From Candidatus Zixiibacteriota bacterium (GTDB lineage Bacteria > Zixibacteria > MSB-5A5 > JAABVY01 > JAHJOQ01): DNA of 64,000 bases. Under the pieces are notes generated by a model, which made no database searches, was not told the DNA's origin, and saw only the letters and a list, made by a program, of their open reading frames with translations. Of this stretch, positions 6,401 to 62,069 are shown piece after piece (position 1 is the first letter of the stretch; each line of letters starts with the position of its first letter). The stretch spans positions 1 through 64,000 of the forward strand of contig JAHJOQ010000060.1 of the NCBI GenBank assembly GCA_018820315.1, read 5' to 3'. Both the position numbers and the translations under genes were made by a program.

Positions 6401-8491
6401 TTATCCGGCGTTTGATGTTTTCAGGCGGGCATCAACCACTTCTACGCCTTTTCCTTCTTCAAACGCAAAGACAGGATTCAAGTCCATTTCGTCTATTTCC
6501 GGGAAATCGGAGCAGAGCTGCGATAGTCGCATTAAGGTCTCAGCCAGCTTGTCTATGTCAGCCGGTTTTGCCCCTCTTGCACCCTGTAGAATAGGGTACC
6601 CCTTGATCGAGGAGATCATCCAATTGGCATCCTGTTGTGAAAGCGGCGCCAGCCTGAATTGAACATCCTTGAGAGTCTCCACAAAGATACCACCCAAACC
6701 AAACATAAGCATCGGCCCAAGACCGGCAGTTGCTTTGGCTCCCATGATCACCTCTGTGCCAGCGACCACGTGTTCCTGGAGAATGAAACCGGGCTTATGT
6801 TCTTTGAATTGCGAGGACATTCTGTCGAATGCGTCCAGAAGTGAAGCCTCATCCTCAAGATTCAGACAAACACCCCCGGCATCTGACTTATGAACGATTC
6901 CTTCTGCATCGACCTTCAAAACCAGCGGATACTTGAGCTTCTGCGCTTCCTTCTTAAGATCCTTCTCGGTGTCTATCCGTACGGATTTCACGGTCGGAAT
7001 TCCGTAGCACTGAAGCAACTCAAATACGTCGGCTTGTGGTAAGAACTTCTCCTGACCACGGTAACGGCTCATGATCCCTGCTGCCTTTTCGTTGTCAGTC
7101 TTATACTCCACATACTCAGGGGTTTCTCTCCGCAGAATCTGACCATATTTGATCAGTGCTGCAAGAGCTCTCGATGCTGATTCGGGGAAATTGTATACGG
7201 GAATGCCGCTTTCTCTGATTAACCGAATAACTTCACCGAATTTCTCTTCAATAGTGAGGATTATACAAATGATCGGTTTTTCAGCAGTCGCTCCGATCTC
7301 AGCAAGCTTGCGAGCCACAGCTTCGCAGTCGACAAAAGGAGGCGTGACGAAACAGAGAATAAGCGAATCCGTATTCGGGTCTTTCAGGAGAAGCTCGACA
7401 GCTCCGCCATACTCCTTAGCACCGGCAGTCGCAATCACATCGACCGGGTTGGAGACAATTGCTTCGGAGAAGAGCAGTTCCCCTAGCGCCTTTCCGGTAT
7501 CGGGACTCAACTTCGCCAATTTCAGGCCGGATGAAATGCATTCATCGACAGCAATAATTGCCGGTCCCCCGGTATTCGTGACAATGACGATATTCTCAGA
7601 TTTCGGGATCGGCTGTGTTGAGAAGGAGATGGCGGCTTCAACCATTTCCTGCTGAGAGTGAAAGCGCATGACACCGCTTTTCTCGAAGATTGCATCCGAC
7701 AATGTTTCCTGCTCCAGCAGGGAGCCGGTATGTGAAGCAACAGCCGCGACTCCCTCGGATGTCTTTCCAGTCTTCAAAGCCAAGATAGGCTTCTTTCTGG
7801 TAACCCTGCTGGCGACTTCGAGAAAACCGGCGGGATCCTTGAGTGTCTCGATATGTACCATGATGGCTTTGGTCTCTTCGTCCTGACCAAAGTAATCAAT
7901 GATTTCATTCATACTCACATCAGCTTCATTCCCGAAGCTGGAGTACATCCTTATTCCGATACCGATGCGATGAAGCTCCAGTTTCAATGTCTCGCCAACA
8001 CCTCCACTCTGCGCTACTATTGAGATGTTCCCGGGTGTCATCGGCACAAAAGTGAAGTTGGCATAGATCGATACGGATGGATCGGAATTCTGAATTCCCT
8101 GGGAGTTGGGCCCGTAGATGCGCATTCCGTACTTGTGTGCAATCTCGACTATCTGCTTTTCGAGTGCGAGCCCCTCTTCGCCTACCTCTTTGAAGCCGGC
8201 CGTATGAACAATGGCAAACTTCACACCCTTCTTGCCACAGTCTTCGAGGACAGCGGGAACCAGAGAGTTCTTAATGGATATGTTCACAAGATCTATTTCA
8301 TCCGGCACATCGCCCACAGATGGATACGTCCTGAAGCTTTTGATGACCTTTGATTTTGGATTGATAGGATATATGGGGCCTTTGAAATCATGGTCAACAA
8401 GGTTCTGGATTACGATGTGGCCGATACTCAAGGGGTTATTTGAAGCGCCGATAATCGCCACTGATCTGGGTTTGAATAAACCGTCAAGCAT
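6401..8491 (-). CDS. Acyl-CoA synthetase, ADP-forming, fused alpha-beta
   Basis: A 696-residue single-chain ADP-forming acyl-CoA synthetase. The N-terminal CoA-binding Rossmann domain begins LFKPRSVAIIGASNN. A succinyl-CoA-synthetase-like domain follows, with the phospho-histidine segment ASHTGSLL near residue 250. The C-terminal third (from about residue 470) is an ATP-grasp domain ending in MDLNPVF. The family interconverts acid + CoA + ATP with acyl-CoA + ADP + Pi. In this operon it could activate benzoate or another acid at the cost of one phosphoanhydride bond, or run in reverse to make ATP from a pathway thioester. The ATG has a full SD AGGAGG and overlaps the upstream ATPase gene by 8 bp. 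A paralogue lies at 35079-37199. No AMP-forming benzoate-CoA ligase is present in the window. Confidence 0.88.
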   Translation of the reverse strand: MLDGLFKPRSVAIIGASNNPLSIGHIVIQNLVDHDFKGPIYPINPKSKVIKSFRTYPSVGDVPDEIDLVNISIKNSLVPAVLEDCGKKGVKFAIVHTAGFKEVGEEGLALEKQIVEIAHKYGMRIYGPNSQGIQNSDPSVSIYANFTFVPMTPGNISIVAQSGGVGETLKLELHRIGIGIRMYSSFGNEADVSMNEIIDYFGQDEETKAIMVHIETLKDPAGFLEVASRVTRKKPILALKTGKTSEGVAAVASHTGSLLEQETLSDAIFEKSGVMRFHSQQEMVEAAISFSTQPIPKSENIVIVTNTGGPAIIAVDECISSGLKLAKLSPDTGKALGELLFSEAIVSNPVDVIATAGAKEYGGAVELLLKDPNTDSLILCFVTPPFVDCEAVARKLAEIGATAEKPIICIILTIEEKFGEVIRLIRESGIPVYNFPESASRALAALIKYGQILRRETPEYVEYKTDNEKAAGIMSRYRGQEKFLPQADVFELLQCYGIPTVKSVRIDTEKDLKKEAQKLKYPLVLKVDAEGIVHKSDAGGVCLNLEDEASLLDAFDRMSSQFKEHKPGFILQEHVVAGTEVIMGAKATAGLGPMLMFGLGGIFVETLKDVQFRLAPLSQQDANWMISSIKGYPILQGARGAKPADIDKLAETLMRLSQLCSDFPEIDEMDLNPVFAFEEGKGVEVVDARLKTSNAG

Positions 8492-49866: not shown

Positions 49867-50381
49867 GACACTTCCTACCAATCTCCGGACACTAGTCGAG
49901 AGACGCTGCTGAGTCAGAAGACAACACTTAAGAGATCAATAGAGAATTTGTTGGTTGTAGCGGAAGAAGGCAAGCTCACGGATTCACTCAAGAAGCGGTT
50001 GGTTGTAAAGGAGTCTCAACTTCAGAATGTCGAGCGAGAGTTGGCGAATTTGACAGGCCAGATATCCACAATCGAAGACATCGACTCAGCGTGGGTGAGA
50101 AGGAAGCTCTCACGACTCAGCGAGCTGCTGCAGAATCACACCGAAGCTATCGGTGTATTTCGGACTGCATTGAAGAATGTGTTCCCCGACAAGCTTGTAG
50201 TCAGAGCAGTCGAACACTCCGGAAGAACTTCATCAAGATACATGGAAAGGTAATGCCGCTTAATATGCTCGCTGAAAGTGGACTTCCAATGGTGTTAAAT
50301 AGCGGTGCAGGGACTTGCAACACCATTGGAACAATCATACCAGTCGAAGTGACCATCGTCCAAAACCGCAAAGTGGCCTAA
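49867..50381 (+). pseudogene. Decayed serine recombinase, C-terminal region
   Basis: From 49867 one frame reads LKRSIENLLVVAEEGKLTD and later WVRRKLSRLSELLQNHTEA, the long coiled-coil tail of large serine recombinases that follows their zinc ribbon. Near 50220 the reading shifts to another frame, which carries IKIHGKVMPLNMLAESGLP, then SGAGTCNTIGTIIPVEV and a stop at 50381. The catalytic N-terminal half is missing and the upstream sequence is closed by stops, so this is a fragment. It implies that an integrative element once sat here. Nothing recognisable was found from 49528 to 49866 except a short palindrome at 49623-49636. Confidence 0.65.
50297..50381 (+). repeat. Dispersed tail repeat, copy A
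   Basis: 85 bp ending in a stop codon, colinear and gap-free with copy B at 58817-58901; copy C at 61218-61295 matches over the last 78 bp. The first 23 bases of A and B are identical. All three translate to a GAGTC(N/S)xIGxxIPxEVxV-type C-terminus. Confidence 0.75.
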
Positions 50382-50688
50382 AGACAGGGAGATACACACA
50401 CGCAGAGAAACAGATTTCGTTTGCAGATGCAAGGTGGATTCTGAGATCTGGCAATGGGACACTCATGATTGCCTCGATTCCGCAATGCCATACCTACGAA
50501 AATATTTTCCAAACCTTAGGCTATGAATGCTCGTTTCAAACAGAAGGAAGAAAGTCAAGAAACCCGGTGTTACACTGACAGGTTCTGACAGGGGCAATGC
50601 CTATAATTACACAGGGTTAATATAACTTGTCCACTCGATGTCAATTCGAAGTCGCACGATCAGATTGGCAGAAGAGATGGTTCTTGTA
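50382..50688. other. Intergenic stretch after the recombinase fragment
   Basis: About 300 bp with no supportable gene. It contains only short frames; no repeat or RNA gene was recognised before the promoter at 50689. Confidence 0.45.
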
Positions 50689-50717: not shown

Positions 50718-50797
50718 AGTTTAGCATCCTTCTGATCCTGACAACTGAGCAGAGAGCATTTGAAGAAATAGATATTACTTTAACGGGAGATGTGACA

Positions 50798-51145
50798 ATG
50801 AAACGGGTGATTCTGTCCCTCACCCTCGCGTTGTTGATGCTGGGATTGGTCTGTCCCACGATCTCGCAAGCCGACGACAGCGCGACACCGGCCGCATCGA
50901 GCGCAAGCTCTGCCGCCGCACAAAGCACTCCTACCGCATCAGCCGAAACATTCCCGCCTGAAACTGAGAACAGCTCACTGGGGTCTGTTCTCGATGATCT
51001 CCTTGAAATGGCCTCATCGCTGACCGACCTGTTCGGAGACGATATCGAACCACCAAGCATGTCCGGCACTCCACCCGGAGATCCAGTAATCAGTGACAGT
51101 CGGCCGGATGGGGATGATGGTGGCTGGGATGATGACATGAAATGA
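50798..51145 (+). CDS. Small exported acidic protein, unknown function
   Basis: A 115-residue protein from the ATG at 50798 with GGGAG upstream. Residues 1-25 form a Sec signal peptide (MKRVILSLTLALLMLGLV... ending SQA). The rest is of low complexity: an Ala/Ser/Thr/Pro-rich linker, a short amphipathic stretch SLGSVLDDLLEMASSLTDLF, and an Asp/Gly-rich acidic tail. I recognise no family. It is co-oriented with and 26 bp upstream of the sigma-54 activator of the peptide system, so it may be a cell-surface partner or sensor input for that regulator, but this is a guess. There is only one cysteine, inside the signal peptide. Confidence 0.6.
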   Translation: MKRVILSLTLALLMLGLVCPTISQADDSATPAASSASSAAAQSTPTASAETFPPETENSSLGSVLDDLLEMASSLTDLFGDDIEPPSMSGTPPGDPVISDSRPDGDDGGWDDDMK

Positions 51146-51171
51146 GAATCCAGAATTTGGAGTAGAGGGTA

Positions 51172-53325
51172 ATGGTCTCTCGGACATTCAATGTCACTGA
51201 GCAGAAAGTAGAGAAGCTGATTTCAGAGTCGAATTACTCTGAAGCACTAGCTTTGATTGAACAGCTGCGCAACTCGGTAGTCAAAAGCAACGCGCATATG
51301 TTGAAAGCGCGAATGTTCTATCTCCACTCCAAGTGTCTGTTCAAGTTAGGGAAATACCGCGAAGCTCTATTGAAGATCCGATCAGCAGCGCGTATTGTAC
51401 GTGCAACAAATGACAATGCATTCCTTGCAGATATCAAGCATGTTCTTGGGTTAATCCTCATCCGCCTAGGAAGATTCGGTGATGCAGAGGAAGCCTTGAC
51501 AGAATCCTATGTATTTTACAAGAGGACTCTCGACTACAAATCCTTGTTCTTTCCGCTCAGCCACATGGCTCAGCTTCATTACATTACCGGCAACTTCAGA
51601 CGCTCATGTGAGGTGCTGGAGTTGACAATCAGGTATGCTGCCAAGTACCATTCTCAGGATAGAGTTGACAATGTTAAACGAAACCTGGCAAGAGTCCTCA
51701 CATACATGGGGCAGTTCCAAAAGGCTAGCACTGTCCTGGATTCAGTATCTCCGTCACCATCTGACTTGAGAGCGCAAGCAAGCTCTACATTCCTTGAAGG
51801 TATGATTGCCGTTTTTCGATTGCAGGCCCCGCTCGGACAGTGCCATATTGAATGTGCACTGCGACTATTCTCAGAGTTGAAAATGCCACAAGACATCAAC
51901 GTTTGTCTGGAATATCTGGGGCTTTTGTCGCACTTTGAAAGCAACTACGCCAAAGCACGCGAATGTTACCAGAAAGTTCTCGATATGCCGGAACCGACAG
52001 CATCGGCGGTGGCGCAGACTCTGCGTATGCTGACAGATGTCTATATCGCCGAAGAGAAATTCGACATCGCAGAAGAGACCGCTATCAAAGCCGAGGCATC
52101 AATCACCAAGATCAGCGAACGCATCGAACTCGGTGCGCTCTACCGTGCTTACGGTCAGATATATGCACACAAGAAAGAGAACGATTCCGCTCGCGACTAT
52201 TTCAGTAAGTCGATCGATCTTCTGCGCGAGATAGGTGCGCGCTACGAACTCGCGCTGTCGTATCTCGCAGCCGGCAAGTCTGAGTCATACAGTTTCGATG
52301 AACGCATGCGTCATCTCGAAATGTCGCGGATGTTGTTTATCGAAATGGATGTCCCGAAACGGGTCGAGCAGGTTGATGATGCGGTCAGGATGTTGAGACT
52401 GGATTCGATACCCGATGTAATTCAGAGCGATAGCGAACCTGTCATCATAGCGGGCAGCAAGATCATGAAGAAGGTCCTTGTGCTCGCAAGGAGTGCTGCT
52501 GAGAGTGACATAAATGTCCTATTGACCGGTGAAACCGGCACAGGCAAGGATTTGCTGGCACGCTATGTCCATTGTCAAAGTGGACGAACCGGCGAGTTCA
52601 TCACAGTCAACGCTGCGGCTATTCCGGACAGCATGGTGGAGGCCGAGCTATTTGGCTGTCGGAAGGGCTCATTTACTGGCGCTGAGGAGCACAAACGCGG
52701 ATTGATCGAGGCTGCGGAGGGTGGGACGTTCTACCTGAACGAGATTGCCGACGCGACACTGGTCTTTCAAGCGAAGCTTCTGGAGGTTCTGGAGACACAC
52801 GAAGTCCGAAGACTCGGCGAAACCACCAAACGCAAGGTAGATTTCCGATTGATTTCTGCAACCAACCACGACATCAAGAATCGCATCGCGGAGAGCGAAT
52901 TCCGCGCGGATCTCTTCCACAGACTGAAGGAGCTTCAGATAGAGCTGCCAACACTTAGGCAGAGACTTGAAGAAATTCCATTTTTGCTGACCCATTTTGC
53001 CAGGCAGCTCTTTCCCAATGCCGATAATGATTCGATCTGCAATTTGTCCAAACAAGTTCCTCTCTCACTGACCGAGTACGAATGGCCGGGCAACGTCAGG
53101 GAGTTTAGAGCATTCTTGCACTCGTGTGCAATCGAGAGCAACGGAGACTACGGACGATTCCTGAAGCTTCTCCGCACGGTTGATCGTCACGAAGGAGGCG
53201 AGAGAGACAGGTTGGAGCGTATCCTAAAGGAGACACGTTGGAACCGGAGAGCTACCGCCCGCAGACTGGGAGTTTCCGAGGGCACCGTTCGCAACCGCAT
53301 TAAGAAGTTCAGGCTCTCCCCTTAG
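51172..53325 (+). CDS. TPR-containing sigma-54-dependent activator (TPR-AAA-Fis)
   Basis: A 717-residue enhancer-binding protein. Residues 1 to about 400 are tetratricopeptide-type helical repeats (for example YSEALALIEQL, YREALLKIRSAAR, YAKARECYQKVLDMP) in place of a receiver or GAF domain. The AAA+ domain spans about 420-640, with Walker A TGETGTGKDLLAR near 451, the sigma-54 contact loop GSFTGA near 499 (usually GAFTGA) and Walker B GGTFYLNEI near 518, where the usual aspartate is asparagine. The arginine finger FRADLFHRL is present. The C-terminus (about 678-717) is a Fis-type helix-turn-helix NRRATARRLGVSEGTVRNRI. A -24/-12 promoter and repeated sites lie directly downstream, so its target is almost certainly the peptide operon. 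Confidence 0.88.
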   Translation: MVSRTFNVTEQKVEKLISESNYSEALALIEQLRNSVVKSNAHMLKARMFYLHSKCLFKLGKYREALLKIRSAARIVRATNDNAFLADIKHVLGLILIRLGRFGDAEEALTESYVFYKRTLDYKSLFFPLSHMAQLHYITGNFRRSCEVLELTIRYAAKYHSQDRVDNVKRNLARVLTYMGQFQKASTVLDSVSPSPSDLRAQASSTFLEGMIAVFRLQAPLGQCHIECALRLFSELKMPQDINVCLEYLGLLSHFESNYAKARECYQKVLDMPEPTASAVAQTLRMLTDVYIAEEKFDIAEETAIKAEASITKISERIELGALYRAYGQIYAHKKENDSARDYFSKSIDLLREIGARYELALSYLAAGKSESYSFDERMRHLEMSRMLFIEMDVPKRVEQVDDAVRMLRLDSIPDVIQSDSEPVIIAGSKIMKKVLVLARSAAESDINVLLTGETGTGKDLLARYVHCQSGRTGEFITVNAAAIPDSMVEAELFGCRKGSFTGAEEHKRGLIEAAEGGTFYLNEIADATLVFQAKLLEVLETHEVRRLGETTKRKVDFRLISATNHDIKNRIAESEFRADLFHRLKELQIELPTLRQRLEEIPFLLTHFARQLFPNADNDSICNLSKQVPLSLTEYEWPGNVREFRAFLHSCAIESNGDYGRFLKLLRTVDRHEGGERDRLERILKETRWNRRATARRLGVSEGTVRNRIKKFRLSP

Positions 53326-53336
53326 TTTTCCTCAAC

Positions 53337-53444
53337 TTGCGTAATTCACGGAGTACCTGTGCGCACTTCTACGCAACCAGTAATCCTCTGACCTTGATTA
53401 TCTTAGCCACTAATCGCAATCGCGTTGCGTAGGATGATGCGTAA
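53337..53444. promoter_or_regulatory. Cluster of four TGCGTA half-sites, probable upstream activator sites
   Basis: TTGCGTAA (53337-53344), CTACGCAAC (53369-53377, inverted), GTTGCGTAG (53424-53432) and ATGCGTAA (53437-53444). The second and third form a perfect 9 bp inverted pair. They lie about 95-200 bp upstream of the sigma-54 promoter, the usual distance for enhancer-binding proteins, and right after the activator gene. Confidence 0.65.
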
Positions 53445-53536
53445 ATCTGCGGGCGATCTCTCCTCATTTTTTGATTTCCAGATCAGTTTCTACTCAACTA
53501 CAGCCGTTTACAGTCATGATTCGCAAAGTGCCATAT

Positions 53537-53552
53537 TGGCATTTCATTTGCT
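53537..53552 (+). promoter_or_regulatory. Sigma-54 (-24/-12) promoter of the peptide-maturation operon
   Basis: TGGCAT-N5-TTGCT with GG at 53538-53539 and GC at 53550-53551, the exact 10 bp spacing required for RpoN. The start point would be near 53563, giving a leader of about 58 nt to the radical SAM start at 53622. Confidence 0.8.
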
Positions 53553-53621
53553 ATTAGTCCACAACAGAAAGTATGGAAAGGCTTGGTTAATGATCCTGTG
53601 AATGAAAATGGGGAATTCGCC

Positions 53622-55004
53622 ATGAAGAAGAGAGTCAAAGCATCAAGGTATAATCATATAGTCACCGGACAGGATGGTGATGTTCTCGGATTTAATGCAA
53701 TGTCGTGCGGACTCGGGAGTATTGATCCCGACAAGCGAGATCGCTTCGCTCAAATGACGGCTTCCAGGGAGCCGTTTGAGATCGACTCGGAAGATGAATT
53801 CTGCAAAGAGTTGTTCAGGGGTGGCTTTCTCATTCCAGAGGACCTGGATGAGCTGAGTTCAATCCGGGCAGCACATTATTCTGCAAGATTCAGTGAACAG
53901 TCCACCGGAATGACCATCATCCCGACTCTCAACTGCAACTTTGCCTGTGACTACTGCTACGAAGACTCAAGCGTACATGTCTCAAAGGACCCTTCCAAGA
54001 GAGCTATGTCCGAGGAGGTTCAGGACAATCTTGTGGAACTCGCGGAGTCCCGGATCAAGGAGAACTCAGTTTTCACAGTGACCTGGTACGGTGGAGAGCC
54101 GCTGCTGCGTCTTGACATTATTGAGTCACTCTCGAAGCGATTCAAGGAGATATGTGAGCGGAAGCAGTCGCGGTATTTTGCCGGAATAATCACGAATGGT
54201 TACTTGTTGACTCCCAGAACCGCAGTGATCCTGGCACAAAACGGTGTGAAATTCTGCCAGGTCACACTTGACGGCGTCAAAGCCGTACATGATTCAAGAA
54301 GACCGCTACGCGGCGGCTCTGGTACATTCGACCGAATAGTTGAGAACGTGACTGCTGTTTCGGAGCAGACGGACTTGACCCTATCCATTCGAATCAATGC
54401 CGACAACAGAAATAGCTCATCCATAAGCGAATTGCTGTGTGACTTACGGAAGCGCGGATTGCACGACCGAGAGAAGGTGAATATCTACTTCGGGCAGGTG
54501 CTTGAGTACTCGAACTCATGTCGTGATACCCCGGATTTCTGTATGGCAAACGAGGAGTTTGCTGACTTTCAGGTCGTTGCGTACAGGAAGGCTCTGGAGC
54601 TCGATTTCAGGATTTCAACATACCCATTCGCCAATTTGGGGAATTGTGGCGCAGTTAAGAGCGTAGCATCGATAATCGAACCGTCCGGTGATGTCCACAA
54701 CTGCTGGAATACGGTCGGAAGGCATGACATGCGAACCGGTGATTTGACTCATGAAGGTGTCGACGCAACTCGGAATTCTATCAACTGGCTTGGTTGGACA
54801 CCTTTCGCGGTGAAATGCAACGACTGCGAAGTTCTTCCCGTTTGTATGGGTGGCTGTCCTTATAGGTCGCTTTTCGGCGCAGACGAGAATGGTGGAGACA
54901 ACGGCACATGCATTTGGTGGAAGTTTAATCTTAGAAAGATGTTGGAATTGTTCAGCGAAGCACAGAAGCGGGGCAAACTTGCTGTTTCGCAACGGAAGAG
55001 GTAA
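53622..55004 (+). CDS. Radical SAM/SPASM peptide maturase
   Basis: About 460 residues from the ATG at 53622, with GGGGAA upstream; a TTG at 53583 would add 13 residues. The N-terminal region of about 95 residues (SRYNHIVTGQDGDVLGFNA ... GGFLIPEDLDEL) resembles the precursor-binding front of peptide maturases. The SAM cluster is C105, C109 and C112 in LNCNFACDYCYE, followed by TWYGGEPLL. The C-terminal SPASM region has NCGAV, GDVHNCWN, KCNDCEVLPVCMGGC and GTCIWW, enough for auxiliary Fe-S clusters. Such enzymes install thioether or C-C crosslinks in ribosomal peptides. Two Cys-rich peptide genes follow directly, making a RiPP maturase far more likely than a sulfatase-maturating enzyme; no sulfatase is present. 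Confidence 0.85.
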   Translation: MKKRVKASRYNHIVTGQDGDVLGFNAMSCGLGSIDPDKRDRFAQMTASREPFEIDSEDEFCKELFRGGFLIPEDLDELSSIRAAHYSARFSEQSTGMTIIPTLNCNFACDYCYEDSSVHVSKDPSKRAMSEEVQDNLVELAESRIKENSVFTVTWYGGEPLLRLDIIESLSKRFKEICERKQSRYFAGIITNGYLLTPRTAVILAQNGVKFCQVTLDGVKAVHDSRRPLRGGSGTFDRIVENVTAVSEQTDLTLSIRINADNRNSSSISELLCDLRKRGLHDREKVNIYFGQVLEYSNSCRDTPDFCMANEEFADFQVVAYRKALELDFRISTYPFANLGNCGAVKSVASIIEPSGDVHNCWNTVGRHDMRTGDLTHEGVDATRNSINWLGWTPFAVKCNDCEVLPVCMGGCPYRSLFGADENGGDNGTCIWWKFNLRKMLELFSEAQKRGKLAVSQRKR

Positions 55005-55007
55005 ACA

Positions 55008-55037
55008 AGCGTGATTGTTCATAGTGTAGATCACGCT
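55008..55037 (+). promoter_or_regulatory. Intercistronic hairpin between maturase and first precursor gene
   Basis: AGCGTGAT, 14 nt loop, ATCACGCT: perfect 8 bp stem starting 3 bases after the maturase stop codon and ending 13 bases before the SD of the first precursor. There is no T-run. It could stabilise a processed precursor mRNA or allow different expression levels. Confidence 0.5.
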
Positions 55038-55060
55038 CAAATCACTCAAAGGAGGTTCAG

Positions 55061-55204
55061 ATGAACTGGTTGGTGATCCCAATGCGTTCGGGTGACTTAG
55101 GCACTGTTTGTAGCATCGTCATATGCTGCAGTCAGGCATGTTTCTTCGATGTACATCCTTGCGTCCCCAACGCAGGTTGTTTCACAGATCCTGTGGTGCG
55201 CTAA
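55061..55204 (+). CDS. Cys-rich precursor peptide 1 (MNWLVxP family)
   Basis: A 47-residue gene with a perfect SD (AAAGGAGG, six bases before ATG). The start MNWLVIP is shared with the second small gene. After a short Gly-containing region come six cysteines: C17, C22, C23, C27, C34 and C40, with core segments VCSIVICCSQACFF and PCVPNAGCF. The size, tandem paralogue, strong ribosome binding site and position between a radical SAM/SPASM maturase and a protease/ABC exporter identify it as the probable modification substrate. It is shorter than usual gene-calling cut-offs. Which residues are crosslinked, and where the leader ends, is unknown. I do not recognise a described RiPP family with this beginning. 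Confidence 0.8.
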   Translation: MNWLVIPMRSGDLGTVCSIVICCSQACFFDVHPCVPNAGCFTDPVVR

Positions 55205-55278
55205 GCGAAATGTGGAAGGTCAAGAATAACCTTGCCGCGTTAGACTGAAACGATTTTATTAAGAGAAAGGGCAATTCT

Positions 55279-55419
55279 ATGAACTGGCTTGTTAATCCAT
55301 CAGGTTCGCCGATCAAGGGTGGAGGTCCTGAATGCGTAATTCTACCTTGGATATGTATTAGTCTCTGTTTGCTCAACTGTGACTATTGTCTCGTTTACTT
55401 CTACGACGATCTAAAGTAG
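55279..55419 (+). CDS. Cys-rich precursor peptide 2 (MNWLVxP family)
   Basis: A 46-residue gene with AAAGGG eight bases upstream of ATG. It starts MNWLVNP like precursor 1, then a Gly/Pro/Ser region (SGSPIKGGGPE) and a core with five cysteines: C19, C26, C30, C34 and C37, the last four in CISLCLLNCDYC with spacing 3-3-2. The tail is aromatic and acidic (YFYDDLK). The conserved first seven residues and divergent cores are what is expected when one maturase serves two products. Intergenic distance from precursor 1 is 74 bp, with a small AAGGT/ACCTT hairpin. The downstream protease frame can be extended to overlap this gene, but its likely start is later. Confidence 0.78.
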   Translation: MNWLVNPSGSPIKGGGPECVILPWICISLCLLNCDYCLVYFYDDLK

Positions 55420-55445
55420 TAGTTGAGTCGGTGAAGATCCTGAGA

Positions 55446-56183
55446 ATGCGAGAAGGATTCATAAGCGCTGTGGCACTCGGAAGTTTTGTTCGACCGTTTG
55501 ATCGATTGCATAGGCGGGAAGCTGGCTTGCTCTGCGTGTGCATGGTCTACGTCATCGGCGGTGCCGTGAGCAATGTGGTTCAAGCATCACAGGTTGATTT
55601 GACCATACTTGCTGCTGTGCAGTATCTGATGGTGGCGTTTTGGGTCATCCTGACGGCAGCGGCAATCAGGTTTGCCGTGGTATCGGGAGCCGATGTTTCC
55701 CGGTATGGACTCTCTGGAGGGGTCGTTAGCTGGACGACAGTCATCTTCTGCTCTGCTTACACTATCTATGCTTTCACCAGCCGTTCGTCCATCCTTGTTC
55801 CACCGTTGCTCGGCACTTGGTTAGGTCTGTTCGGTGTTGTTGTCGAGGAGGTTGTGTTTCGCGTGATTTTGGTGCACCTGTTCAGGAAGCTACTCGGGCC
55901 GCTGAACCACAGCCTGTTTTACTCGATTCTCCTCAGCAGCCTGATCTGGTCATCTGTTCACATTCCTACGAAGGACTTCTCACTTGTAATCGGGCTATTC
56001 ATAACGGCAATACTTGTGTCGACGTTTTACTGGTATACTCGAAGTCTCCTGCTTCCGATCTGGTTGCATGCCTTGGCTAACACGGGATTCGTTGGTGCGG
56101 GTGTGGCGGTGGTCCTGTATACTGCTGTCCTGGTTGTCCTGCGTTTCACCCGACATCGTAACAAGGTTGCACAGATGTCATGA
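55446..56183 (+). CDS. CPBP-family intramembrane metalloprotease (Abi/CAAX type)
   Basis: About 245 residues from the ATG at 55446; a GTG at 55431 or a TTG overlapping precursor 2 are alternatives. It is an integral membrane protein with about seven hydrophobic segments. CPBP motifs: EEVVFR (glutamate pair and arginine), SLIWSSVHI (histidine) and LHALANTGF (HxxxN), all near membrane segments. CPBP proteases are often found in bacteriocin and RiPP operons, where they cleave leaders or give immunity. Here it is the obvious candidate for removing the MNWLVxP leader, or for self-protection. It overlaps the ABC ATPase gene by 4 bp. Confidence 0.83.
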   Translation: MREGFISAVALGSFVRPFDRLHRREAGLLCVCMVYVIGGAVSNVVQASQVDLTILAAVQYLMVAFWVILTAAAIRFAVVSGADVSRYGLSGGVVSWTTVIFCSAYTIYAFTSRSSILVPPLLGTWLGLFGVVVEEVVFRVILVHLFRKLLGPLNHSLFYSILLSSLIWSSVHIPTKDFSLVIGLFITAILVSTFYWYTRSLLLPIWLHALANTGFVGAGVAVVLYTAVLVVLRFTRHRNKVAQMS

Positions 56184-57130
56184 TCACTCTCAACAACATA
56201 TGCTACCGCTATCCGAGAGCGGAGCGGTCTGCTCTCGATCGAGTTACTCTGACCGTTCGCCCCGGTGAGATATTCACTCTGCTCGGTCCCAATGGTGCCG
56301 GCAAGACTACGCTGATACGCATACTCTCCGGATTAATTATCCCACAGCAGGGGCAGGCATCCATCTGTGGGTACGACACGCTCAGAGATCAGTATGCCGC
56401 AAGGCAGCCACTCGGGTTGGTACTCGGCGACGAACGGACATTCTACTACCGACTTTCCGGGAGGCAGAACCTCGAGTTCTTCGGTGGGCTGCTGGGGCTA
56501 CGAGGCAGACGCATTGCCGACCGGATCAATGAAGTGCTGGAGATGGTCGGCATGACGGACTCCGCGAAGCATCCGTTTATGAAGTTCAGTACTGGAATGA
56601 GAAAGCGTCTGAACTTCGCGCGTGCGCTTCTGTCGGATCCGTCTGTCTATCTGCTCGATGAACCGAACAGCGGCGTCGATCCTGCGTCTGCGTCCCATAT
56701 CAGGGAGATCATCCTCGACCTGAAAAAAAGGGGCAAGACAATACTTCTCACGACGCACAACCTTCAGGAAGCCGAGAGATTGTCTGACGCGATAGGATTT
56801 CTGAAAGCCGGAATCTTGCTTCGAACGGGATCTGTCTCGGAGTTCAGAAGCGGTATCGAACGGAGCTGCATATCCGCGATTTTCGGCGCGAATGGGACTC
56901 CAATCAATGTTGAGATGGAGAAGCTCGTCAAGAGAATCAGAGTCTGCAGCCCGGACAGCAACGTGACCGTGAACGACAATCGTATCAGCATTTCATTGAG
57001 CGACAAGCTCGAAGCAAATGAAGTGATCAATCTGCTTTCCGGATCTTCGCTTCACCTGGAGGACGTCCGCTATGGAGACGCATCCCTCGAAGATGTCTTC
57101 TTCCACTTGGCTGGAGGCGGCAATGTATAA
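56180..57130 (+). CDS. ABC transporter ATP-binding protein
   Basis: A 316-residue ATPase. Walker A is GPNGAGKTTLIR (about residues 37-48), the signature loop is degenerate (KFSTGMRKRL instead of LSGGQ), Walker B is VYLLDEPNSGVDP and the switch histidine is in LLTTHNLQEAE. The C-terminal 90 residues are the regulatory extension typical of ABC-2 exporters of the DrrA/CcmA type. It forms a transporter with the following permease, probably exporting the modified peptide or giving immunity. It overlaps the protease gene by 4 bp and the permease gene by 8 bp, so the group is translationally coupled. Confidence 0.9.
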   Translation: MITLNNICYRYPRAERSALDRVTLTVRPGEIFTLLGPNGAGKTTLIRILSGLIIPQQGQASICGYDTLRDQYAARQPLGLVLGDERTFYYRLSGRQNLEFFGGLLGLRGRRIADRINEVLEMVGMTDSAKHPFMKFSTGMRKRLNFARALLSDPSVYLLDEPNSGVDPASASHIREIILDLKKRGKTILLTTHNLQEAERLSDAIGFLKAGILLRTGSVSEFRSGIERSCISAIFGANGTPINVEMEKLVKRIRVCSPDSNVTVNDNRISISLSDKLEANEVINLLSGSSLHLEDVRYGDASLEDVFFHLAGGGNV

Positions 57131-57926
57131 AGGCTACCTGTTCATCAAGCGTGGCATTGTAACAATGCTGAGCTACAGAACTGCGCTGGTGCTGGGCATC
57201 GTCGGAAGCTTCATCGGACTGCTGCAATTCTCTTTCATGGGGAGGTTCCTCACGGAAGGGAACAGTTTTCCGGCTCTGAACGCATACGGTGGAAACTTGC
57301 TTGCTTATCTGATAATCGGTACGGCGTTCACGAGCTTTGTTGGAGTCTCTCTCGGTTCGTTTCAGAACACCATCAGAAGCGAGCAACAGATGGGTACTCT
57401 TGAGTACCTGCTGATCACAAACACGAAGCTAGAGCTTCTACTCTCGTACTCAGGATTGGTCAGTTTCCTCGGTACGCTCCTGAATGTCACGCTGCTATTA
57501 CTTGTAGTAATCTTCGTCTTTGACATTCCCATGGAGGTGAATCTGGCTGGGGCCGCAGTCTGCATTCTGCTCACGATCACGTCGCTCTCGGGAATTGGCT
57601 TGATGGGTGCGGGAATTATCATGGTGACCAAAGTTGGGGACCCTGTGACATGGATATTCACAACGCTCACGGGTCTGCTAAGCGGCGTACTGTTTCCGGT
57701 GGAATACCTGCCCGGAGCGTTGAAAGCCATATCGATGCTTCTGCCGACTACACATGCCCTTCATGCACTGCGACTCACTCTGACGCAGAATGCGTCTATC
57801 GAGCAAATTTCTTCCCAGCTGCTCTTTCTCTTGATAGCATCCGCAATCACAGTCCCGTTGGGATTCTTCTCAATACGTGCCGGATTTAACAAGGCCAGAA
57901 GGGATGGTACGCTGGCACATTACTGA
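57123..57926 (+). CDS. ABC-2 type transporter permease
   Basis: 267 residues from the ATG at 57123, which overlaps the ATPase stop by 8 bp; an in-frame start at 57072 lies inside the ATPase gene and is disregarded. Six hydrophobic segments are present. The final third has FTTLTGLLSGVLFPVEYLPG, a conserved ABC-2 permease feature, followed by LLPTTHALHALRLTL. Together with the ATPase it makes one complete half-transporter pair. Export of mature peptide, self-immunity, or both are plausible roles. Confidence 0.87.
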   Translation: MYKGYLFIKRGIVTMLSYRTALVLGIVGSFIGLLQFSFMGRFLTEGNSFPALNAYGGNLLAYLIIGTAFTSFVGVSLGSFQNTIRSEQQMGTLEYLLITNTKLELLLSYSGLVSFLGTLLNVTLLLLVVIFVFDIPMEVNLAGAAVCILLTITSLSGIGLMGAGIIMVTKVGDPVTWIFTTLTGLLSGVLFPVEYLPGALKAISMLLPTTHALHALRLTLTQNASIEQISSQLLFLLIASAITVPLGFFSIRAGFNKARRDGTLAHY

Positions 57927-57947
57927 TTGACTACGAAGGGAGGCTCT

Positions 57948-58694
57948 ATGTCCAATGAAGCGCTCGTCAGGGAGACCGGAACCGAGATGGTCAGGCGACC
58001 CAGTACTTGGAGCGACGTCGTGAATCTGTTCGTCTCTCCACGCTCGACCTTTGAATCAGTTTCTCGGAGGGCTCGATGGGTTATACCCTTCCTGCTTCTG
58101 GTACTGTGCGCTGTAGTCTTTGAAGTCTCCGTGAGTGGGACCAGAATGGACGATCTTAAGTTACAGGTCAAGAACGATCCGGATATGTCGCAGGATGATA
58201 TCCAGCATCGTCTCGACAATATCGAAAACCAACGGTCTCCGGAATTGGTCAGTCTCCGAACCGGGCTTGGTGTCCTCGCGTTGGGCGTGCTGGAATTCGC
58301 CAAGCTACTTGGATTGTCGATTGTGTTGCTGCTTTTCTGCATGCTGTTCGTGAGCGAGTTGAGGTTCGTAGCGATCCTGTCGATCTGCGCATTCAGTTCA
58401 CTGATATTGATCCCCGAGATAGCCTTGAAGATTCCTTTGATTCTCTTGAAAGGGACGACTCATATATGGTTCAGCCCGGCAGCACTCTTTTCCGGCATGG
58501 ATGAGAATAACCTCATGTTCAGATTCATGCAGAGCATCGACATCTTTACTATTTGGAAGATGATTCTAGTCGGAATGGGATTACATACGGTGTTCGGCAT
58601 TGCGAAATCAAAGTCCTACTTAATTGTGACGGTTCTCTTCCTACTTTGGGTCGCTGGTCACTCTCTGCTGGGAGGGCTGATACATATAGCCTAA
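57948..58694 (+). CDS. YIP1-family membrane protein
   Basis: About 248 residues from the ATG at 57948 with GGGAGG upstream. The soluble N-terminus has WSDVVNLFVSPRSTFESVSRR, the phrase that opens bacterial YIP1-domain proteins, and five hydrophobic segments follow. The family has no well-defined bacterial function; it is often co-encoded with ABC-2 transporters. It ends the peptide operon, 21 bp after the permease, and may help transporter assembly or immunity. Confidence 0.75.
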   Translation: MSNEALVRETGTEMVRRPSTWSDVVNLFVSPRSTFESVSRRARWVIPFLLLVLCAVVFEVSVSGTRMDDLKLQVKNDPDMSQDDIQHRLDNIENQRSPELVSLRTGLGVLALGVLEFAKLLGLSIVLLLFCMLFVSELRFVAILSICAFSSLILIPEIALKIPLILLKGTTHIWFSPAALFSGMDENNLMFRFMQSIDIFTIWKMILVGMGLHTVFGIAKSKSYLIVTVLFLLWVAGHSLLGGLIHIA

Positions 58695-59039
58695 TACACC
58701 TGCACGTTACGATTGGACAGAAAGCTCTTGTGTGGGTTGCGAAACTGCATTCGAAGTACGAAGAGCGGTTATGTCTCTCAGCAAAATTTCTTCAAGCAAG
58801 TTTCCCCTGAGTGTCCAAATAGCGGTGCAGGGACTTGCAGCACCATTGGATATTCGATACCATTCGAAGTGGCCGTCAATTAGGAGCGAAAGGCGGCTTG
58901 ACGGCAGCGGCACGCTCACAGTCAGCAAATGCTAACCAAACCGTATCTCAGGTCACCTCCCCTATGTGTCCACTTTCTGCTGAAACGCGACAATATACTG
59001 GATGCGATACACTACGTCGTCTATATCAAGCTCGCAACG
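58695..59039. other. Intergenic region with recombinase-tail remnant
   Basis: About 345 bp between the YIP1 gene and the HEAT-repeat gene remnant. The only recognisable content is tail copy B at 58817-58901. No gene is supportable. Confidence 0.5.
58817..58901 (+). repeat. Dispersed tail repeat, copy B
   Basis: 85 bp, colinear with copy A. The reading frame GAGTCSTIGYSIPFEVAVN is broken by an internal TAG before the terminal TGA, so it is a dead remnant. Confidence 0.75.
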
Positions 59040-60948: not shown

Positions 60949-62069
60949 ATCAAACCTCCTATAACCGAAGAGTAGGTTGTAGCGAACACATGTCGATTCA
61001 AACAAAGCATTTTGTGGTGTTGCACAGTGAACAGTCTCGATTCCAAAACCATTGTACGTCGTCAGAACGTTTCGGACATTTTGGTTTTGAATTTAGGGGA
61101 TTATTCTGTCTTTGGCAAGTATGATATCTGGCTGTCATCTTGCTGTTGATCCCACTCCACTTGATGCAGCCGGGTTGTTCTGTCGCCTTTATTGCATAGG
61201 GTACCGAGAATCAAGTAGACGCAGGGACTTGCAACGCTATTGGAATATCTCTACCGTTTGAAGTGATTGTGACCTCCAAGCGAAATGCAGCCTGATTGCA
61301 TTGATATGATCTCACTTGCCGTCGGATTTCTTCCATCGGAACCGGTAATCTGGCGGTCCTGTGGACGGTGAGAGTCTGAGATCTTCTACCTTCGTGTGAC
61401 GAGTACACGAATCTGCTCAGGCAACGGTAAACACCGGACACAAACAGGCAATAGCAATAGGAGCTTAGACAGAGTATTCTGTCCCGTGTCTCCCGTTATT
61501 GTCCGTTGTTCTGGTCAAATTTGTTAGTAAGATGTAGGAAAGAGTTGCGTGTCAACGTGGCTTGGCCAACCTTTATGGAACTGAAAACCAGAGAAGAGAA
61601 GATCAAAGAGCAAATGCCATCTGTTGCCAAGCTCACTCCGATTTCCCGGTCTCGTACGTTTGCATCAAAGACCTTTCGCCACGCTTACCCCGGATCAGAA
61701 AGGGGGATTCTTTGTATTTGGGATCCCACATTTGCGCGAGAAAAAGCTTGACTGAAAACGGCGGTATTCTTATAATGAAATTACCAAACAGGATTCAGGT
61801 TCGGTCCGATCGCGTTCTTCATCCAAAGTTACAGACTTCTGGATCGCCTTAAACTAATTTCGGGAATGTTGTTCTAGGCACCTTCATGGTTGATTGGCCA
61901 GATTAGAACAGCGGCGAGGAATGGTGTAATCCCGGTAAAACGTACTCATCGCACCGCCATGAATTGGTGGTGGTGAGCGGAAGCAGACCGATGAGATCGA
62001 AGGTATGTGCATCATCAGTGCAAAAATCTTCAGATTCAGCAACCTTTTGCCCCAAAGGGAGGGAGAGCG
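60949..62069. other. Intergenic region with recombinase-tail remnant C
   Basis: About 1.1 kb without a convincing gene. It contains tail copy C at 61218-61295. Short frames at 61506-61852 overlap one another in different registers and look like decayed coding sequence, but I cannot name a parent. No RNA gene seen. Confidence 0.45.
61218..61295 (+). repeat. Dispersed tail repeat, copy C
   Basis: 78 bp colinear with the last 78 bp of copy A; reads DAGTCNAIGISLPFEVIVTS, KRNAA and stop. More diverged than A and B at DNA level but the protein tail is intact. Confidence 0.7.

Follow-up and report, generated by a model that had tools for sequence, protein, structure and literature searches.

The window (the whole stretch of 64,000 nucleotides that was analysed), from an uncultured Zixibacteria-type bacterium, holds a set of genes whose most likely products are two small, cross-linked, cysteine-rich peptides, along with the means to export them or to resist them. 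With a probability of roughly 0.7, we consider this set a two-precursor RiPP operon in which precursors A and B would both yield crosslinked products, the membrane protein and transporter genes would provide export and trimming or protection, and a neighbouring activator would operate a sigma-54 switch. The genes, the two conserved precursor types, the conserved order, the specificity of the start motif and the maturase clade can be read directly from sequence comparison; recognition of the leader, crosslink type, transport direction, immunity, an antimicrobial role and the inducing signal are inferred. The gene set is to be seen not as a system of unknown kind but as a new branch within an enzyme family already known. 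Its features are as follows.

50792 to 51145, + strand: small predicted secreted protein, 117 residues, with a hydrophobic N-terminus and the C-terminal tail GDDGGWDDDMK
51172 to 53325, + strand: TPR / sigma-54-interacting AAA+ / Fis-type activator, 717 residues (Pfam Sigma54_activat 7.7e-58, TPR_12, HTH_8)
53337 to 53450, no strand assigned: GCGTA/TACGC word cluster with four GCGTA-type words, candidate activator binding sites
53537 to 53552, + strand: sigma-54-type promoter site TGGCATTTCATTTGCT, with one mismatch to TGGCAYRN4TTGCW
53622 to 55004, + strand: radical SAM/SPASM peptide maturase, 460 residues, with CxxxCxxC and SPASM cysteines (TIGR04463, 342 bits)
55061 to 55204, + strand: precursor A, 47 residues, MNWLVIPMRSGDLGTVCSIVICCSQACFFDVHPCVPNAGCFTDPVVR, kept as type A in genomes G087 and G043
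55279 to 55419, + strand: precursor B, 46 residues, MNWLVNPSGSPIKGGGPECVILPWICISLCLLNCDYCLVYFYDDLK, with conserved type B counterparts in G087 and G043 that have the same end, CD[YF]C..FxY
55446 to 56183, + strand: CPBP-family intramembrane protein (PF02517, 1.7e-14), from an ATG; an alternative TTG start at 55386 is possible
56180 to 57130, + strand: DrrA-like ABC transporter ATPase (PF00005, 2.9e-28; TIGR01188, 256 bits)
57123 to 57926, + strand: ABC-2 type permease (PF01061, 1.9e-9)
57948 to 58694, + strand: Yip1/YknW-type membrane protein (PF04893, 1.5e-9; NF052650 YknW, 71 bits, cut-off 110)

An earlier note, made from the letters alone, had described the operon as a co-directional, mostly overlapping array. 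The single direction holds for the whole block, but tight packing or overlap is limited to the CPBP, ATPase, permease and Yip1 genes; 56 nt separate the maturase gene from A, and 74 nt separate A from B. Likewise, the strong ribosome site claimed for both small genes is found before A (AAAGGAGG), that of B being weaker (AGAAAGGG). The secreted protein and the activator lie upstream of the operon, and the regulator-plus-operon block is bracketed by direct repeats (50297-50405, 58817-58925 and 61221-61300; 80-109 nt, 70-71% alike), the core of which, about 20 nt long, has a few further copies in the genome.

The order maturase, A, B, CPBP, ATPase, permease, Yip1 is found again in G087 and G043, both from this phylum, and the grouping is therefore not due to chance. 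The window maturase forms one clade with those of G087, G089, G093, G043 and G053 (support 99, from a short tree search); several relatives lie on short contigs. In four of these five relatives one or two cysteine-containing small ORFs starting with M[NTK]W[LI][VA]xP lie downstream of the maturase gene, while the G053 contig stops within that gene. Some observations in the same clade count against the RiPP operon reading: the maturase of G043 is interrupted by a frame change, G089 and G093 have no CPBP, ABC or Yip1 genes nearby, and the precursor of G093 has three cysteines only and aligns poorly to A or B. In its favour, the precursor cores are orthologous by type. With the start motif removed, type A cores match type A (z 2.5, 2.6 and 7.8) and type B cores match type B (z 2.8, 4.7 and 7.4), whereas A against B stays between -0.5 and 0.8 except for a single pair (z 2.1). 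As judged from these cores, A and B are two distinct precursor types, each of them conserved.

The starts of the two precursors, MNWLVIP and MNWLVNP, belong to the type M-x-[FYW]-[IL]-x-x-P, of which MNWLVxP is, by its residues, a tryptophan variant. Across 133 genomes there are 24 matches to the codon pattern MNW[LIFVM][VA]xP; only five of them open a cysteine-rich ORF with a ribosome site, and these all lie beside this maturase clade. A further match in the same genome, on contig C57, was rejected as an additional precursor, being a 182-residue frame with no ribosome site and no cysteine-rich core. The RiPP system proposed by the earlier note was to be given up if small ORFs were absent or unconserved near maturase homologues. 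It is well supported in this respect: the two precursors are real and conserved beside such homologues, and of the 65 related maturases that the phylum provided (76 table rows minus 11 plasmid or repeated rows), 49 have a small cysteine-containing ORF with a M-x-[FYW]-[ILVM]-x-x-P start and a ribosome site within 2.5 kb, as compared with none in control loci totalling 482,612 strand-bases, where the ribosome-site filter was slightly stricter. It is very improbable that the small ORFs instead encode cysteine-rich proteins that bind metals or clusters and have no link with the maturase, which would then act on another substrate: their high cysteine content and fast-changing sequence would suit such proteins, but the start motif common with catalogued RiPP precursors, the strict linkage to the maturase clade and the two precursor types kept in order all speak against this.

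The earlier note had also held the precursors to be unlike known ones. This fails for their start, which is common to the precursors of Clo7bot (MKFIKKP) and CefA (MQYLVQP), which belong to related maturases, and stands for family membership, as neither A nor B matches any NCBIfam or Pfam model, TIGR04333 included. Precursor B of G087 aligned to TIGR04333 from position 1 but stayed below its cut-off (11.3 bits, E 0.23, cut-off 31).

The maturase is best started at the ATG at 53622, in agreement with its relatives (MEKLKASRYNH, MADELKLSKYNH). TIGR04463 is its best NCBIfam match (342.1 bits over the full length, cut-off 525), followed by the Clo7bot model TIGR04334 (300.8 bits, cut-off 600), CefB (229 against 600), geopeptide (177 against 400), PapB (122 against 340) and SCIFF (77 against 425); being below every cut-off listed for it, it is assigned to none of those families. 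It would work like them, and it forms a separate clade within the superfamily of TIGR04463 and Clo7bot. Among 42 homologues the radical SAM cysteines C105, C109 and C112 are invariant, and the SPASM cysteines C342, C361, C399, C402, C408, C412 and C430 are kept in at least 90%. Its predicted structure (pLDDT 91, from an alignment of zixibacterial loci only) has the thioether-forming CteB as best solved match, and the N-terminal part of the model shows strands then helices, an arrangement as in an RRE. The full set of cysteines and the match to CteB argue for the RiPP operon reading, and radical thioether peptides are the most likely class of product. Related maturases (E below 1e-40) are present in 38 of the 133 genomes; relatives outside the phylum were sought in plasmid records and in one scan of genome contigs of limited reach. 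Titles and abstracts of the literature yielded no account of this operon's system, and searches on TIGR04463, Clo7bot, radical SAM geopeptide, and TPR with sigma54 and RRNPP found nothing.

In the proposed mechanism, the N-terminal domain of the maturase would recognise the M-N-W-L-V-x-P start of both precursors, and the enzyme would then link thiols of core cysteines to other residues, probably through radical thioether bonds of the ranthipeptide or sactipeptide kind, so that two differently patterned products would arise from A and B. The ABC pair may move these products out of the cell, and CPBP and Yip1 may trim them, protect the producer, or both. The CPBP motifs EExxxR, [FW]xxxH and HxxxN are present as EEVVFR, WSSVH and HALAN. 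These catalytic motifs agree with the CPBP protease of the earlier note; a role as leader protease is not established, the inactive-looking extra copies and a maturase-free cassette pointing to immunity. The operon of G087 contains two extra CPBP copies without catalytic motifs, and G002 carries a CPBP-ABC-Yip1 set with no maturase on the contig. Together with the YknWXYZ pump of Bacillus, in which a Yip1-type protein and an ABC transporter protect the cell against the SDP toxin (PMC4887032), these cases favour self-protection, and the CPBP-ABC-Yip1 genes look like serving self-immunity at least in part; they may also act in export and leader trimming. The permease type is present in 11 of the 133 genomes, the G087 copy being 71% identical, and in G069 and G107 the same transporter type stands beside other cysteine-rich short-start ORFs, an association that also supports the RiPP reading.

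An antimicrobial role combined with self-protection is our leading view of the products, held tentatively and at slightly less than even odds. A signalling or surface role ranks next: the products could be signals or surface-acting peptides, with CPBP trimming the leader and the ABC pair exporting. This is possible though doubtful. It would suit the position of the operon beside a regulatory module that includes a small secreted protein, and it agrees with the one active-looking CPBP copy retained in each complete operon, but the orphan set of G002 and the inactive-looking CPBP copies of G087 fit protection better.

Four genes of the same genome are close paralogues of the TPR/sigma-54 activator (45-52% identity), and the predicted structure of its TPR part resembles MalT domain III. 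An RRNPP-type peptide receptor was rejected as a reading of the activator: none was among the best 50 fold matches listed, and MalT domain III was better by TM-score. A small ORF, usually coding for a hydrophobic N-terminus, directly precedes 24 of the 28 related activators, and 18 of 22 small secreted proteins carry a motif [DEH]..[GPS]W..[DE], picked after looking, as against 2.3 in shuffles. These proteins may carry the activator's signal.

The earlier note placed the operon behind a sigma-54 promoter. Within the window such sites are at chance level (one found, 2.27 expected), and the site alone was rejected as evidence. It becomes credible through its position behind the adjacent activator, which is common to paralogous loci: it lies 211 nt after the activator stop, and the four paralogues of the same genome have theirs at about 258-273 nt. 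Downstream sequence of 300 bases or more was available for 26 related activators; in 12 of them, a site with no more than one mismatch lies in the 500 bases that follow the stop codon, as against 0.1 in shuffles and none on the other strand. The four GCGTA-type words fall between the activator stop and the site, and similar clusters (GCGTA, TCGCA or TCGTA) occur at several paralogous activator loci. With a correctly spaced site behind an activator and rpoN in the genome, sigma-54 control of the operon is plausible, and the activator would probably turn it on from the site at 53537 in response to some inducing signal. We judge it unlikely that the site is a chance match and the operon free of sigma-54 control; the chance-level count and the lack of a matching site upstream of the G053 maturase, which an activator relative adjoins, would agree with this, but the recurrence at paralogous loci, confined to one strand, argues against such a match and, with rpoN, for the RiPP operon reading as a whole. 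A fuller scheme is improbable taken together: a two-peptide crosslinked antimicrobial with CPBP-ABC-Yip1 immunity, whose activator senses a signal from the secreted protein, as a peptide-signalled, sigma-54-driven RiPP system of an uncultured phylum.

The module formed by small secreted protein, TPR/sigma-54 activator, word cluster and downstream sigma-54 site (50792-53552 in the window) recurs in the phylum (loci L122-L128 and L138-L157) with cargo genes that vary between copies. Other precursor loci were also encountered. A large separate group lies upstream of related maturases, starts with M-x-[YF]-[LI]-[IV]-[DE]-P and often ends like PLYG[VI]xP (L049, L056, L061, L062, L072, L074, L075, L078-L081, L083-L086, L089, L091-L103 and L105-L107); one example had no NCBIfam or Pfam match. 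In G089 (L109, 4.0-6.3 kb), a divergent maturase is accompanied by three small ORFs that start with MDFLIQP and have ends of the CGC and GCGCPQ type. The window's own genome has a second, more distant maturase (L014, contig C133), upstream of which lies a cysteine-rich MKYLNEP ORF with a GTG start; ABC transporter sequence is also found in the vicinity. In G069 (L207, 6221-7710, - strand), several small ORFs of the form M[EQH]F[IML]xxPFLL...LGCCCxxLT (e.g., MEFITNPFLL..LGCCC) have a more distant maturase on one side and the ABC transporter type of the window on the other; two examples had no NCBIfam match. In G107 (L208), two MRWLxxP small ORFs (C.QY.PC.CYC.PKL), at 7697 and 8073, directly follow a related ABC pair, with no maturase found within the 13 kb of this locus. 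The related maturases in 38 of 133 genomes point to a phylum that is RiPP-rich and little studied, and two conserved precursor types per maturase offer a clean test of one SPASM enzyme on different cysteine patterns.

Among known systems, YknWXYZ resembles the operon in that a Yip1-type protein and an ABC transporter act jointly, in Bacillus to counter a peptide toxin, but is a MacB-type transporter with an adaptor, whereas the operon has an ABC-2 type and its Yip1 protein falls short of the YknW cut-off. CteB of the SCIFF ranthipeptides, nearest among solved structures in both sequence and fold, shares about 16% identity with the maturase, which stays far below the SCIFF cut-off and has another precursor. 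The TIGR04463 system with CefA (Methylomagnum, L065) has the best-matching maturase model, but its CefA is a precursor of 679 residues with regular cysteine repeats, and a methyltransferase and an oxygenase are additionally encoded beside it. Clo7bot (TIGR04333 peptides and TIGR04334 maturase, on a Paraclostridium bifermentans plasmid, L066) has a homologous SPASM maturase (34% identity), several short cysteine-rich precursors starting with M-K-[FY]-I-x-K-P (MKFIKKP, MKYIVKP) and ABC transporter genes nearby. Unlike Clo7bot, the window has tryptophan at position 3, other cysteine patterns, precursors downstream of the maturase and a CPBP-ABC2-Yip1 cassette, with half the bits required of the maturase (301 of 600) and no precursor model match. 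We suggest M-x-[FYW]-[IL]-x-x-P as a common handle of these separately catalogued families (Clo7bot, CefA and the present one), and as a testable rule for finding their precursors.
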